Part shown: positions 39,597-45,299 of the stretch, piece by piece
How the letters are laid out: the number at the start of each line of letters is the position of its first letter
Numbering within the stretch: the first letter of the stretch is position 1
NCBI GenBank assembly: GCA_026415715.1
Contig: JAOAGO010000012.1
Coordinates: 1-64,000 of the forward strand
Source: Chitinophagaceae bacterium
GTDB taxonomy: Bacteria; Bacteroidota; Bacteroidia; Chitinophagales; Chitinophagaceae
Reading direction: 5' to 3'
DNA: 64,000 nucleotides
The notes under the pieces: model-generated
What the model was told of the DNA's origin: nothing
Databases searched by the model: none
Seen by the model: only the letters and a program-made list of their open reading frames with translations
Program-made: the position numbers and the translations under genes

Positions 39597-41891
39597 ATGA
39601 AAGCCTTTTTAAAAGAAGTTTATTATTCTTTTCCCGTACAGCTGGTATTTCTTCATTTCAGAAAATACCAGGCGCTCATCATTTTCTGGGTTATTTTGTT
39701 TGCAACGGTGAATGGATCTTTCATGAAAATGTTTGGCGCCGATTCATTGTATCTGGCGCCCGAATACCTGGGCAATGTAAACTCATTGAGCATGGCATTT
39801 GTTGGCGGGGCTGTCGGTATGTTTATCATGAGCTGGAATATTGCTACCTTTATTCTCTTCAGCCGTCAGTTTCGGTTTCTTGCCGCCACTACCAATCCGT
39901 TTTTGAAATATTGCATAAATAACGCCATCATACCGCTGTGTTTCCTGATATTTTATATTTTCAAGGCTTACCGTTTTGAACAATATCGGGAATTGATGCC
40001 TTTTTCTGAAATCCTGTTTCTGCTCGGCGGATTTTTCAGCGGTCTGATATTGATTTTACTGTTGTCTTTTATTTATTTTTTTCGCGCCGATCGTACCATC
40101 ATGCGCAAAATGATTCCGGTCATCAGCGAACCGAGCGCATACATTACACACCTGAATCCGCAGAGAGAAATACATTATGTGGTGCCGCTCATAAAGGTGA
40201 AATGGTATCTCGAATCTTATTTCCGCATTAAACGGGTAAGGGATGTATCGCATTATACCGAAGAGTTTGTGGAAAATATGTTTAAGCAACACCATTTTGC
40301 GGCCATTCTGTCGGTGTTTACGGCTTTTGTTTTTCTGGTCTGCATCGGATTTCTTATAGATAATCCGGTTTTTCAGCTTCCGGCGGCAGCCAGTATTACC
40401 ATATTTTTTGCCATACTGCTGGGATTAGCCGCAGCCATTACTTATTTTCTGCAAAGCTGGAGTATTCCTTATCTGGTTTTGCTGGTGCTGTTGCTGAATG
40501 TTTTTTATAAGTTAGATTGGATTGATCCGCGAAACAAAGCCTATGGCCTGAATTATAAAAACAAAAAAGACCGGCCGCACTATTCGCCGGAAACCCTGCG
40601 CCGCCTCAGCAGCCCGGAGAATATAGAAGCGGATAAAAAAAACATGGAAGAAATTTTAAACCGATGGAAGGAAAAACAACAACAGGACAAACCCCTTCTC
40701 GTTATTCTGAATACCAGCGGGGGGGGGCACCGAAGCGCTACCTTTACCCTGAGCATCCTGCAACATCTGGACAGTCTGACCCGCGGCGAAATCATGAAGA
40801 AAATATTTATGATTAACGGAGCTTCCGGCGGCATGATAGGCGCAACTTATTTTCGCGAACTATATCTCAGAAAAATAAACGGCCAGCCGGTTCATTTGCA
40901 AAGCTATCAATACATTGACGATATATCCGGCGATTTATTGAACCCGTTGTTTACCTCGTTTTTTACCCGCGACCTGATTGCCCCCGCCCAGCGCTTTTAT
41001 GTAGGAGACCAATCGTATGTGAAAGACAGAGGCTATGCTTTTGAACAAAAACTCAATCAAAATACCCGGGGCTTTCTGAATAAACAACTCAAAGATTACG
41101 CCGAAGATGAAAAAAAAGCAAGAATACCGCTCATCTTGTTCAATTCCGTTATTAGCCGCGACGGGCGAAAAATGATTATCAGCACTCAACCAGTTCGCTT
41201 CATGATGCGATCCGCAAGAGATACCTCCCGGCTGCCCTATGCGGAACCCGATGCCGTGGACTTTATTTCCTTCTTTGAAAATCTGCAACCATACAACCTG
41301 CGTATTCTGACTGCACTGAGAATGAATGCAACCTTTCCTGTAGTGCTTCCAAACGTATGGCTGCCCTCCGTACCGGTGATTGATGTTATGGATGCCGGAC
41401 TTCGCGATAATTACGGTGAAGAAACCACGCTTCGCTTTCTCGGCGCCATGAGCAACTGGATTAAAAAAAATACCCGCGGTACATTCATCATACAGATTCG
41501 CGACAGAGCTTCGGGCGGCTGGGAATATCCTTTTGTTTCTGATAATATCGGTTCATTCGTCACCAAACCATTCTTTACGTTGCAACACAATTGGTTTAAA
41601 ATCATGGAATATCTTCATGCCGAATTACTTGGCGCTTACAGCGCCACCGAACCCTATCCGATTTATAAAGTTGTATTTGAGTATGTTTCAAATAATAAAG
41701 AAAATAAAGCCCCGTTAAATTTTCATTTAACCAAACAGGAAGAAAAAGATATTCTTTCATCCGTTTACTCCGATAACAACCGGAAAAGCTTTCAAAAAAC
41801 CCTGGAAATTCTGAATAAAAATCCGATAGCCGATACCGTTGAGCAAATTTTACGGTTTCCATGGAATTTTATTTCTCCGCCGGAAAATTAG
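39597..41891 (+). CDS. Membrane-anchored patatin-like phospholipase
   Basis: 764 aa in two parts. Residues 1-305 hold about six to seven hydrophobic segments. Residues about 360-700 form a patatin-like serine lipase: a glycine-rich oxyanion segment (NTSGGGHRSATF, about 373-384), the nucleophile elbow GASGG with Ser410, and the catalytic Asp599 in DAG. The Ser/Asp dyad is complete, so lipid acyl hydrolase activity is plausible; the substrate is not known. The membrane domain is not part of typical patatins. It follows ctaA after 48 bases on the same strand. Confidence 0.8.
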   Translation: MKAFLKEVYYSFPVQLVFLHFRKYQALIIFWVILFATVNGSFMKMFGADSLYLAPEYLGNVNSLSMAFVGGAVGMFIMSWNIATFILFSRQFRFLAATTNPFLKYCINNAIIPLCFLIFYIFKAYRFEQYRELMPFSEILFLLGGFFSGLILILLLSFIYFFRADRTIMRKMIPVISEPSAYITHLNPQREIHYVVPLIKVKWYLESYFRIKRVRDVSHYTEEFVENMFKQHHFAAILSVFTAFVFLVCIGFLIDNPVFQLPAAASITIFFAILLGLAAAITYFLQSWSIPYLVLLVLLLNVFYKLDWIDPRNKAYGLNYKNKKDRPHYSPETLRRLSSPENIEADKKNMEEILNRWKEKQQQDKPLLVILNTSGGGHRSATFTLSILQHLDSLTRGEIMKKIFMINGASGGMIGATYFRELYLRKINGQPVHLQSYQYIDDISGDLLNPLFTSFFTRDLIAPAQRFYVGDQSYVKDRGYAFEQKLNQNTRGFLNKQLKDYAEDEKKARIPLILFNSVISRDGRKMIISTQPVRFMMRSARDTSRLPYAEPDAVDFISFFENLQPYNLRILTALRMNATFPVVLPNVWLPSVPVIDVMDAGLRDNYGEETTLRFLGAMSNWIKKNTRGTFIIQIRDRASGGWEYPFVSDNIGSFVTKPFFTLQHNWFKIMEYLHAELLGAYSATEPYPIYKVVFEYVSNNKENKAPLNFHLTKQEEKDILSSVYSDNNRKSFQKTLEILNKNPIADTVEQILRFPWNFISPPEN

Positions 41892-42131: not shown

Positions 42132-43802
42132 ATGAATTCAGGACATGATGATATGTCGGCGGAAAATTTTCTTCATGAAGCGTTTGAAGTGAAATACAAT
42201 CCGCATACTCAACAAAAAGGATTATACTCAAAAATTCCTTTCAAAAAAAGGGCCGTTATAACCGGATTTCGTGCTTCAAAATATTCAGCAACTCCCCAAA
42301 GGCTTACTTTACAGATTGCTGAAAACACGCATATTTATTTAATGCCTGAATTTCTGCAGTATGTAAATCACAGTTGTCGCCCCAATGTTTTTTTTGATAC
42401 CGAAAACATGCAGGTCTTTGCGCTTCGAGATATTGCAGCCGGAGAAGAACTGAGTTTTTTTTATCCGTCTACGGAATGGATTATGTCCGACCCTTTTATT
42501 TGTTGTTGCGGAAATGCCGAATGCCTAGGAGAAATGAAAGGGGCAGCATTTTTACCGGAACAGGTTTTAAAAAAATACAGATTAAATTATCATATCCTTC
42601 GCCTGGCCGGCCTATTCCAGAAATTACCTCCCGTAAACCCAAACCCAAAACACGAAATCTGGGAAAATATTGAGACTTATAAAATCTGGGTGTTGGCGCC
42701 GGCGCTGTCAACACCTGATCCGAATATCAGCTATTATTACGATTACAGCCAGAGTTTTCAGGAGCTCAATCAGGTTTTTTCCCGAATGGGGTGCGATTGG
42801 GAGTGGGTGGATGTCACTACAAAAAACTATAAGGAAATTATAAGGGCTTTATTGGAAAAACAGGATAAGATTCCCCTGTTTTTTAACCTTTGCGATGGAG
42901 ATGAAATTAACGGGGCACCCGGTATTTCGGTAATTTATGAGTTGGAAAAACGAAATGTCATTTACACCGGAAGCGATGCATTTTTTTACAGCCTTACCAC
43001 TTCAAAAATTCCGATGAAAAAAGCATTTCATAAAGCCGGAGTGCCTACACCCCCCTGGAGAATAGTTTCTTCCAAAACCGGATCCGTAAACGGTATGACG
43101 CTCAGATTGGGAACACCGATGATTCTTAAACCGGCCGTTTCCGGCGGAAGCATGGGTATTTCCGTTAAAAATGTGGTGCACTCGGAAGAAGAACTGCTCA
43201 CAAGGATTAAAGAACTGGAACAAGGTTATCGGGGATGGAAGCTTACGGGCGATGGTTTTATAGTGGAAAAATTTATTGAAGGAAGAGAGTTTACTACATT
43301 CATTACCGGATCGGCCGATGAGCCGAAGTATTGCAGGGTTTATGAACCTGTGGAAAGAGTATTTCATGACTCTTTACCCGAAACGGAAAAATTTTTATCG
43401 TTCGACAGGCTTTGGGAAATTTATGAAGAAGAATCTGTAATGCCCGGCAACAGCAATTTTTTTGAATATCAACCCGTAGAACCTGAGTTAGTAGCGGCAT
43501 TAAAAGAAATAAGCCTGAAAGCCTATCGGGCCTGCGGGGGCAAAGGTTATACCCGGATAGACATTCGTATGGATAAAAATACCGGGCAGTTGTATGTGCT
43601 GGAAGTAAACGCTCAATGCGGATTAAGCGAAGATGAGAATTTTACTTCTGTGGGAGCTATCATGCGGTTTTCAGGGATACGTTATGAATACATCCTGGGC
43701 GAAATTTTGGCGGACGCATTGCGAAGAGCTGAAAAAAAACAGGATACTGCCGGAAAAAAGAAAGGCCAAATCAAAATCCGTCATTCATTAAGTAAATCCT
43801 GA
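42132..43802 (+). CDS. SET domain - ATP-grasp ligase fusion
   Basis: 556 aa. Residues about 10-140 are a SET methyltransferase domain: NHSCRPN (79-85), ELSFFYP (106-112) in place of the usual ELTxDY, and a post-SET CxCx4C (Cys124, 126, 131). Residues about 185-535 are an ATP-grasp domain of the D-Ala-D-Ala ligase type: Lys333 (ILKPAVSGGSMGI), Glu379 (VEKFIEGREFT), Asp477 (TRIDIR), Glu491/Asn493 (LEVNAQCG). ATP-grasp enzymes form amide bonds through acyl phosphates; SET domains use SAM to methylate, usually Lys. The product is unknown. It pairs with the mirror-image gene 69 bases downstream. Confidence 0.85.
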   Translation: MNSGHDDMSAENFLHEAFEVKYNPHTQQKGLYSKIPFKKRAVITGFRASKYSATPQRLTLQIAENTHIYLMPEFLQYVNHSCRPNVFFDTENMQVFALRDIAAGEELSFFYPSTEWIMSDPFICCCGNAECLGEMKGAAFLPEQVLKKYRLNYHILRLAGLFQKLPPVNPNPKHEIWENIETYKIWVLAPALSTPDPNISYYYDYSQSFQELNQVFSRMGCDWEWVDVTTKNYKEIIRALLEKQDKIPLFFNLCDGDEINGAPGISVIYELEKRNVIYTGSDAFFYSLTTSKIPMKKAFHKAGVPTPPWRIVSSKTGSVNGMTLRLGTPMILKPAVSGGSMGISVKNVVHSEEELLTRIKELEQGYRGWKLTGDGFIVEKFIEGREFTTFITGSADEPKYCRVYEPVERVFHDSLPETEKFLSFDRLWEIYEEESVMPGNSNFFEYQPVEPELVAALKEISLKAYRACGGKGYTRIDIRMDKNTGQLYVLEVNAQCGLSEDENFTSVGAIMRFSGIRYEYILGEILADALRRAEKKQDTAGKKKGQIKIRHSLSKS

Positions 43803-43871
43803 GCAGAAATTCAATACTTGCAATATTTATGCTGCTTAGCTAACCTTTAAAATTTCTGGATAACCTGCTAC

Positions 43872-45299
43872 ATGAAAATCTGCGTATTACAGCCGGATTA
43901 TTCCACAACCGGGGTGGATTACAAAAATTATGATCCCCCCCGTAATCTTTCTAAACTGCTGCCCGAACATGAATTCCATCATGTATTTCTGAATAAGCTG
44001 ACTACCTACAGGCAGTTAAAAAATTTATCAAAACAAGGCTATGACATATTTGTGAATTTGTGTGAGGGGTATCTTGAGTGGGAGGTGCCCGGAATAGATG
44101 TCATCTATTCACTGGAAATGCTGAATCTTCCATTTACCGGACCGTCAAGCGCTTTATATGATCCTTCCAAAGAACTGATGAAATATATAGCGTATTGTGA
44201 AGGCGTTTTAACCCCTGCCTATGTTCCCGTGAGCAGCATGCAGGACATTCGTGAAGTTTTGCACACACTACGCTTTCCGCTTTTTGTAAAACCTGCAAAA
44301 GCCGGCGACAGTCTTGGCATTGATGAACTTTCTTTGGTAAGAAATGAAAAAGAGCTGGAATTAAAATGCATCGACATACTGGAAGAGTACGGGCCGTTGC
44401 TGGTAGAAGAGTTTATAGAAGGCAGAGAATTTACGGTGTTGGTTGCCGCAAATCCCGATGGTCACAGTTGCCGGGTTTTCCGGCCGCTTGAATATGTATT
44501 TCCCGAAGGAAAAACATTTAAAACATATGCGCTGAAAACATCCGAACTGCACCCGGAATGCAATAAGCCTTGTGATGATCCGGAGCTGGATTCCCGGTTG
44601 CGAAGCGCAGCAGAAAAAATTTTTAAAGGGTTTAACGGAGTGGGATATGCCCGGCTTGATTTTCGGATAAATGAAAAAAAAGAAATTTTCTTTCTCGAGA
44701 TAAATTTTACCTGTTCGGTTTTTTATTCAGACGGCTATGAAGGCTCGGCGGATTTTATATTAAAATATGATGGTATAGGCCAGGCCGGATTTCTGAAACA
44801 TATCATTGAGGAGGGCTTGGCAAGACACCGAAGAAATGTAAAACCGTTTACCATAAAAGGCAATGCCATTTCCGGTTACGGCATTTATGCCACAAGAGAT
44901 ATCAAAAAAGGAGAAATAATATTTCACGGTGAAGGCAAAGCGCAGCGGCTGATTACCCGACGGTTTGTAGAAAAAAACTGGAATGAGGAAGAAAAAATAA
45001 TGTTTCGCCGCTATGCTTATCCCGTAAGCCGTGAGTTGTATATATTATGGGCCGAAAACCCGCAGGAATGGTCGCCCCAGAATCACAGTTGCAGCCCGAA
45101 CAGCGCTTTTGACGGCCTTAACGTATTAGCTATAAAAGATATACGTAAGGGCGAAGAAATTACGCTTGATTATGCCGAATTTATGGATGAAAATATGGAG
45201 CCATTTGTTTGTCACTGCGAATCAGAAAACTGCCGGAAAATAATTACCGGTGTTCCCAACAATTCTTTAACAACCCGTGAAGTAAATTTGCAGAAATAA
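43872..45299 (+). CDS. ATP-grasp ligase - SET domain fusion (mirror order)
   Basis: 475 aa with the same two domains as the previous gene, reversed. ATP-grasp at about 1-320: NLCEG (62-66), Lys140 (FVKPAKAGDSLGI), Glu179-180 (VEEFIEGREFT), Asp263 (ARLDFR), Glu276/Asn278 (FLEINFTC). SET at about 330-460: GYGIYATRDIKKGE, NHSCSPN (404-410), EITLDY (429-434) and post-SET CxCx4C (447-454). The SET motifs are canonical here. The two ATP-grasp parts share VE(K/E)FIEGREFT and both have a Cys soon after the metal Asn. No signal peptide. Probably acts with its neighbour. Confidence 0.87.
   Translation: MKICVLQPDYSTTGVDYKNYDPPRNLSKLLPEHEFHHVFLNKLTTYRQLKNLSKQGYDIFVNLCEGYLEWEVPGIDVIYSLEMLNLPFTGPSSALYDPSKELMKYIAYCEGVLTPAYVPVSSMQDIREVLHTLRFPLFVKPAKAGDSLGIDELSLVRNEKELELKCIDILEEYGPLLVEEFIEGREFTVLVAANPDGHSCRVFRPLEYVFPEGKTFKTYALKTSELHPECNKPCDDPELDSRLRSAAEKIFKGFNGVGYARLDFRINEKKEIFFLEINFTCSVFYSDGYEGSADFILKYDGIGQAGFLKHIIEEGLARHRRNVKPFTIKGNAISGYGIYATRDIKKGEIIFHGEGKAQRLITRRFVEKNWNEEEKIMFRRYAYPVSRELYILWAENPQEWSPQNHSCSPNSAFDGLNVLAIKDIRKGEEITLDYAEFMDENMEPFVCHCESENCRKIITGVPNNSLTTREVNLQK

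Follow-up and report, generated by a model that had tools for sequence, protein, structure and literature searches.

What links two neighbouring genes whose proteins share two domains arranged in reverse order, and what might these proteins make? In the window, by which we mean the whole 64,000-nucleotide stretch of DNA analysed here, the ORF P0001 (42132-43802, + strand, 556 amino acids) encodes a SET domain followed by an ATP-grasp domain, and the ORF P0002 (43872-45299, + strand, 475 amino acids) encodes an ATP-grasp domain followed by a SET domain. SET methyltransferases are known mainly as histone enzymes. According to PMC7496086 (2020), the methyltransferases known until then to modify natural products all belonged to other structural classes. 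The initial annotation had regarded the two genes as a mirror-image pair and as a candidate for a pathway that joins and methylates a small molecule.

Pfam bore out the description of adjacent, co-directional genes with the two domains in opposite orders. It reported SET at residues 71-111 (38.9 bits, cut-off 22.4) and Dala_Dala_lig_C at residues 300-526 (70.7 bits, cut-off 24) of P0001, and Dala_Dala_lig_C at residues 124-278 (72.5 bits) and SET at residues 335-434 (50.7 bits) of P0002. We refer to these domains as SET1 and AG1 in P0001, and as AG2 and SET2 in P0002. SET1 spans residues 1-165 (42132-42626, +) and AG1, a D-Ala-D-Ala-ligase-like ATP-grasp module, residues 179-545 (42666-43766, +) of the first protein; AG2, also D-Ala-D-Ala-ligase-like, occupies residues 1-322 (43872-44837, +) of the second, and SET2 residues 323-475 plus the stop codon (44838-45299, +). 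SET matches in the 2.63-Mb genome were found only in these two proteins, one in each. AG1 and AG2 are related to each other (profile comparison, probability 100%, E 5e-44), and genome searches tell the two families apart despite their kinship.

The catalytic residues are conserved throughout. Both SET1 and SET2 contain NHSC and the post-SET CxCx4C, as had been noted at the outset. In the alignments of homologues every row (28/28 for SET1, 58/58 for SET2) keeps the Tyr, the three post-SET Cys and, within NHSC, the N, H and C. The S of NHSC is variable, with C in its place in 8 of the 58 SET2 rows. By their Pfam matches and the conserved NHxC, Tyr and post-SET Cys, both domains fit the SET-domain methyltransferase superfamily. 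The ATP and metal residues that had been read in the two ATP-grasp domains are likewise kept: every AG2 row (58/58) and every AG1 row (38/38) has the Lys, Arg-x-Asp, Glu and Asn, and nothing in the alignments suggests a dead domain among the four. AlphaFold2 models reached a mean pLDDT of 89 for P0002 and of 82 for P0001, the latter being built on an alignment with 6 AG1 rows. Foldseek found DdlB (8evz) as the best match of the P0001 model (E 2.8e-20), and VIA-align superposed the P0002 model on 7u9k with a Z of 30.3 and an rmsd of 2.7 over 298 aligned residues, showing the Ddl fold across residues 1-323. This alignment covered residues 1-327 only and its list holds no SET chain, so that it is silent on the SET fold.

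We compared the two gene fusions in a family sample of 147 genomes, each at least 90% complete, in a phylum sample of 247 genomes, and in the relatives found when an alignment of P0002 relatives was scanned against one genome per species (84,980 species), which yielded at least 527 relatives, of which the best 80 were kept. AG2-SET2 is a widespread fusion, present as one chain in 48 of the 147 family genomes and 12 of the 247 phylum genomes; one of the 48 copies ends at position 420 of 476, at a contig end. The SET-first fusion was seen only in the window genome among the relatives examined. Among the best 80 of at least 527 relatives, all 66 loci with both SET1 and AG1 encode them in two distinct ORFs, with a gap of -118 to 63 bases between them and a common frame in 23 of the 66. 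The SET1 open frame measures 158-219 amino acids in 48 of its 49 carriers in the family sample, and 564 in the window genome. In the three nearest carriers of our first sample (G115, G091 and G033), SET1 and AG1 again form two genes, and a P0002 orthologue of 63-67% identity lies nearby.

Within the window's genus, P0001 was matched in 36 of 42 genomes, its own genome counted. In 13 further genomes from this genus, SET1 and AG1 share a reading frame that is interrupted by one or two stops, so that the loss of a single stop could fuse them. From these comparisons, P0001 is best read as a pair of neighbouring genes that became fused in this lineage, which most simply would have happened by loss of the stop between SET1 and AG1. 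The junction-linker (residues 154-173; 42591-42650, +) has a pLDDT below 50 in the AlphaFold2 model, and residues 141-186 contain no in-frame ATG, GTG or TTG, which argues for a true fusion. Judged from the assembled sequence, a sequencing error is therefore the less probable explanation. The original argument had deduced a partnership from the two orders standing side by side; it is not supported, since the relatives examined encode SET1 and AG1 in two genes, and the mirror image is, as far as the compared genomes tell, a local accident.

The partnership itself stands on other evidence. AG2-SET2 occurs in 48 genomes of the family sample, SET1 in 49 and AG1 in 49; all three are found together in 47 of the 50 genomes that hold any of them, and the fixed partnership that had been proposed is thus supported. 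The three incomplete sets may be explained by contig ends, with SET1 and AG1 at a contig start without AG2-SET2 in G421, AG1 near a contig start and no SET1 found in G427, and SET1 alone near a contig start in G423. The association of SET1 with AG2-SET2 across the 147 genomes has a hypergeometric P of 8e-35, or 3e-24 by genus, neither value being corrected for shared descent. The names of the best 80 of the at least 527 relatives are all those of Bacteroidota groups, except for one 'uncultured bacterium', and many are Chitinophagaceae, including Terrimonas, Sediminibacterium, Ferruginibacter and Hydrotalea. The genes follow one another on one strand in the order SET1-AG1-AG2-SET2 in 62 of the 69 loci from these best 80 that have at least 2.2 kb of upstream sequence; of the 7 genomes departing from this order, 5 carry SET1 at another site. 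The other two, both Ferruginibacter (G452 and G454; L115, L120), carry AG1 and AG2-SET2, and SET1 was not found in them.

A similar association extends into the phylum. SET1 reaches at least 189 bits in 11 of the 247 genomes, all of them within the 12 that carry AG2-SET2, and G211 is the sole carrier of AG2-SET2 in this sample without SET1. AG1 exceeds 500 bits in 5 of the 247 genomes. Six carriers from a distant clade, f17, have SET1 and AG2-SET2, and AG1 was not seen in them; in G212, SET1 and AG1 are located on a different contig from AG2-SET2. Judged by gene content, the core of the system is SET1 with AG2-SET2, accompanied by AG1 in G212 and in the family to which the window belongs. The genes co-occur even when they are unlinked: the partnership is real, and these distributions give good support to the view that the genes serve one pathway. 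What had been presented as a pair does belong together, as members of a unit of three to four genes rather than simply as a pair. Homologues are not usually found alone, and no domain is degenerate. Seven stretches round SET1 genes that lie away from AG2-SET2 were also viewed: AG1 adjoins SET1 in L189, a gene read by eye as leucyl-tRNA synthetase adjoins it in L193, L194 and L195, and these unlinked SET1 genes look as if they sit in varied contexts.

A probable fourth member of the unit is an ABC-type membrane protein without an ATPase domain, which is encoded downstream of P0002 (45419-46312, +; ABC_membrane_3, PF13748, 153.1 bits). Such a gene directly follows AG2-SET2, mostly after 44-188 bases, in 38 of the 76 loci from the best 80 of at least 527 relatives that have at least 1.1 kb of downstream sequence, and it is not directly downstream in the other 38. 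We found no ATPase partner for this membrane protein. Five f17 loci with longer contigs (L038-L042) share a large ORF of one sequence cluster, which Pfam identifies as a full ABC transporter in L042, the one annotated. A third small SET gene, of 118-120 amino acids, adjoins the ABC transporter, SET1 and AG2-SET2 in the same five loci.

The remaining neighbours differ from locus to locus. Upstream of the pair, the window encodes a membrane protein (39597-41891) whose C-terminal half matches patatin weakly, with a score under the cut-off; we rejected it as a partner, as it joined no cluster among 12 loci and is in none of the 25 listed neighbour clusters. P0001 and P0002 matched none of the families in the PADLOC anti-phage defence models at E up to 0.1. 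A viral or plasmid origin was considered and rejected: one scan of viral contigs with P0002 found no relative, and none of the 473 records matched in a plasmid collection extended across more than 80% of the query, those listed matching its ATP-grasp part.

We consider it somewhat more probable than not that SET1, AG1, AG2-SET2 and, often, the ABC-type membrane protein form a biosynthetic unit whose product is a small molecule of the amino-acid type, made by ligation and methylation. This reading is based on the co-occurrence of the genes, the four intact active sites, the Ddl fold, and a nearest solved relative of SET1 that acts on a free amino acid. AG1 and AG2 would use ATP to activate carboxylates and would link free amino acids or their derivatives through one or two amide bonds, the product not being D-Ala-D-Ala. 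Methylation by SET1 and SET2 would fall on a nitrogen or a sulfur atom, either in a building block or in the finished product, and the latter could be transported by the membrane protein or, in the distant clade, by the full ABC transporter found in its place. In the window's lineage, SET1 and AG1 would have merged into one chain, most simply through the loss of a stop. We infer that both substrate and product are small molecules of the amino-acid type, and the early suggestion that these enzymes join and methylate a small peptide or amino-acid derivative still seems to us the best reading. The two proteins may also act as a complex, which had been put forward early on as a heterodimer.

The solved relative is BurB from Burkholderia thailandensis (PDB 9l4t, 9l4v), which converts free methionine into S-methylmethionine, according to PMC12542666. 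A profile of 28 SET1 relatives found BurB as its best match in the PDB (E 4e-19, 72 bits), followed at a distance by the next match (2.1e-8, 37 bits). Like SET1, BurB is a small SET protein with CxCx4C, and its Tyr124 and Ser126-Thr127-Glu128 stretch aligns with the FYPSTEW motif of SET1. Unlike SET1, it is a stand-alone enzyme of 172 amino acids in a sulfonium pathway, and a term search of PMC7496086 found no mention of an ATP-grasp partner. Identity between BurB and SET1 over the aligned stretch is low. For SET2, BurB (E 2e-10, first listed) and the histone methyltransferase KMT2D (E 4e-10) are about equally close. BurB sits on a long branch of the SET tree, and the fork that joins it to SET1 and to the third f17 SET is open, so that its exact place is unsure.

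As characterised SET enzymes are mostly protein-lysine methyltransferases, and as SET2 is about as near to KMT2D as to BurB, the system might modify proteins instead, its SET domains methylating protein lysines and its ATP-grasp domains adding amino acids, as the tubulin-tyrosine-ligase family does. TTL is itself an ATP-grasp-type ligase. A SET-like and a TTL-like domain are united in one protein in TTLL12, as described in the abstract of PMC3520985; TTLL12 is eukaryotic, and according to that abstract it does not methylate histones. Protein modification seems unlikely to us nevertheless, because the fold search places the ligases with Ddl and not with the protein-ligase type, the best relative of SET1 works on a free amino acid, and Pfam reported no protein-binding domain in P0001 or P0002.

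SET domains were also encountered in other company. A 617-amino-acid protein of G203 (L146:8468-10318, -) fuses SET with S-adenosylmethionine decarboxylase and spermidine synthase, a combination of SET with polyamine enzymes that fits a metabolic role. Beside it lies a SET protein of 483 amino acids with a further C-terminal domain. By eye this C-terminal part resembled an ATP-grasp, which Pfam, profile comparison (2%, 5%) and a PDB profile search do not confirm, and the protein was therefore kept out of the evidence. Stand-alone relatives of its C-terminal domain (~290 amino acids) adjoin a gene that looks O-methyltransferase-like by eye (L162:455-2647, L163:349-2292). Two further loci hold two overlapping stand-alone SET genes in tandem (L147:7323-8539, L148:6720-7963), followed in L147 by a UvrA-like gene.

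The ligases have relatives in other settings as well. We fetched 15 loci from other Bacteroidota, which either gave the best AG2 scores outside the system or held tandem ligases. GNAT genes are present in 6 of them, KamA-type genes in 7, and both stand beside tandem Ddl-like ligases in 5, as annotated by Pfam and NCBIfam in L172, by Pfam in L168 and by sequence cluster in the others. A RecG-cluster gene was observed in 7 of the 15. These arrangements are those of L168-L173 and, in part, of L167 and L174. The tandem loci resemble the unit in their two adjacent Ddl-like ligases, which the AG2 model scores at 73-106 bits in L168-L173, and differ from it in that no SET gene was seen and tailoring would fall to an acetyltransferase and a radical-SAM aminomutase; they fit a metabolic role for the unit. 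The pair of GNAT and KamA-type aminomutase recalls the synthesis of acetyl-beta-lysine, and the occurrence of these genes with related tandem ligases could indicate that the unit makes a compatible solute, a methylated dipeptide retained in the cell as an osmolyte, to which N-acetylglutaminylglutamine amide would be comparable. This explanation overlaps with the pathway reading and differs from it in the fate of the product. The ABC-type membrane gene linked in half of the loci and the full ABC transporter cluster in the five f17 loci (by Pfam in L042) speak against it, and we judge it improbable.

The fold of AG1 and AG2 and their ATP and metal residues are those of Ddl, and the ligases might on this ground be supposed to give peptidoglycan stems a different terminus, D-Ala-D-X. 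Their scores with the curated NCBIfam models are, however, far under the cut-offs (100.1 vs 243 bits for P0001, 81.5 vs 245.65 for P0002), and the positions of Ser150 and Tyr216 (E. coli numbering), which we take to be substrate-side residues of Ddl, are changed: the former is Asp in 58/58 AG2 rows and Gly in 38/38 AG1 rows, the latter Thr in 58/58 AG2 rows. A further Ddl-like ORF (G000:C55:63841) is probably the housekeeping enzyme, and the largest neighbour clusters contain no recurring cell-wall gene, as judged from the sequences shown. All this makes a cell-wall variant very unlikely. Even less probable is that the enzymes mature a ribosomal peptide whose gene lies close by, although ATP-grasp ligases do occur in such maturation systems: the 2560 small ORFs round the 80 loci, which are neighbourhood ORFs only, include no convincing precursor, their largest recurring group is present in only 12 of the 80 loci, and the groups inspected seem, by position, to be antisense to neighbouring genes. 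That P0001 and P0002 are two chance fusions of common domains with no functional link, as the occurrence of the SET1-AG1 fusion in the window genome only might suggest, is scarcely credible when 47 of the 50 carriers among the 147 genomes hold all three genes, unlinked cases included.

All parts of the proposed biosynthetic unit come from known families, and their combination as a standing unit appears to be undescribed in the literature searched, in line with the initial annotation of a candidate undescribed pathway. That search, with most subscription papers outside its reach, found no bacterial system of SET and ATP-grasp, TTLL12 being relevant by title; an earlier mention of the system is possible.

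We tentatively suggest, with less than even confidence, that SET methyltransferases are standing tailoring partners of D-Ala-D-Ala-ligase-like enzymes in an undescribed class of metabolite pathways. Its product would be a peptide-like compound that bears methyl groups, perhaps as a sulfonium or quaternary amine, and is common in Chitinophagaceae. BurB is the only small-molecule SET enzyme encountered in this analysis. A co-inherited SET and ligase unit in about a third of the family sample (48/147) lets one test directly whether a separate branch of the SET domains serves metabolism, and it hints at a metabolite still to be discovered in environmental bacteria of wide distribution.
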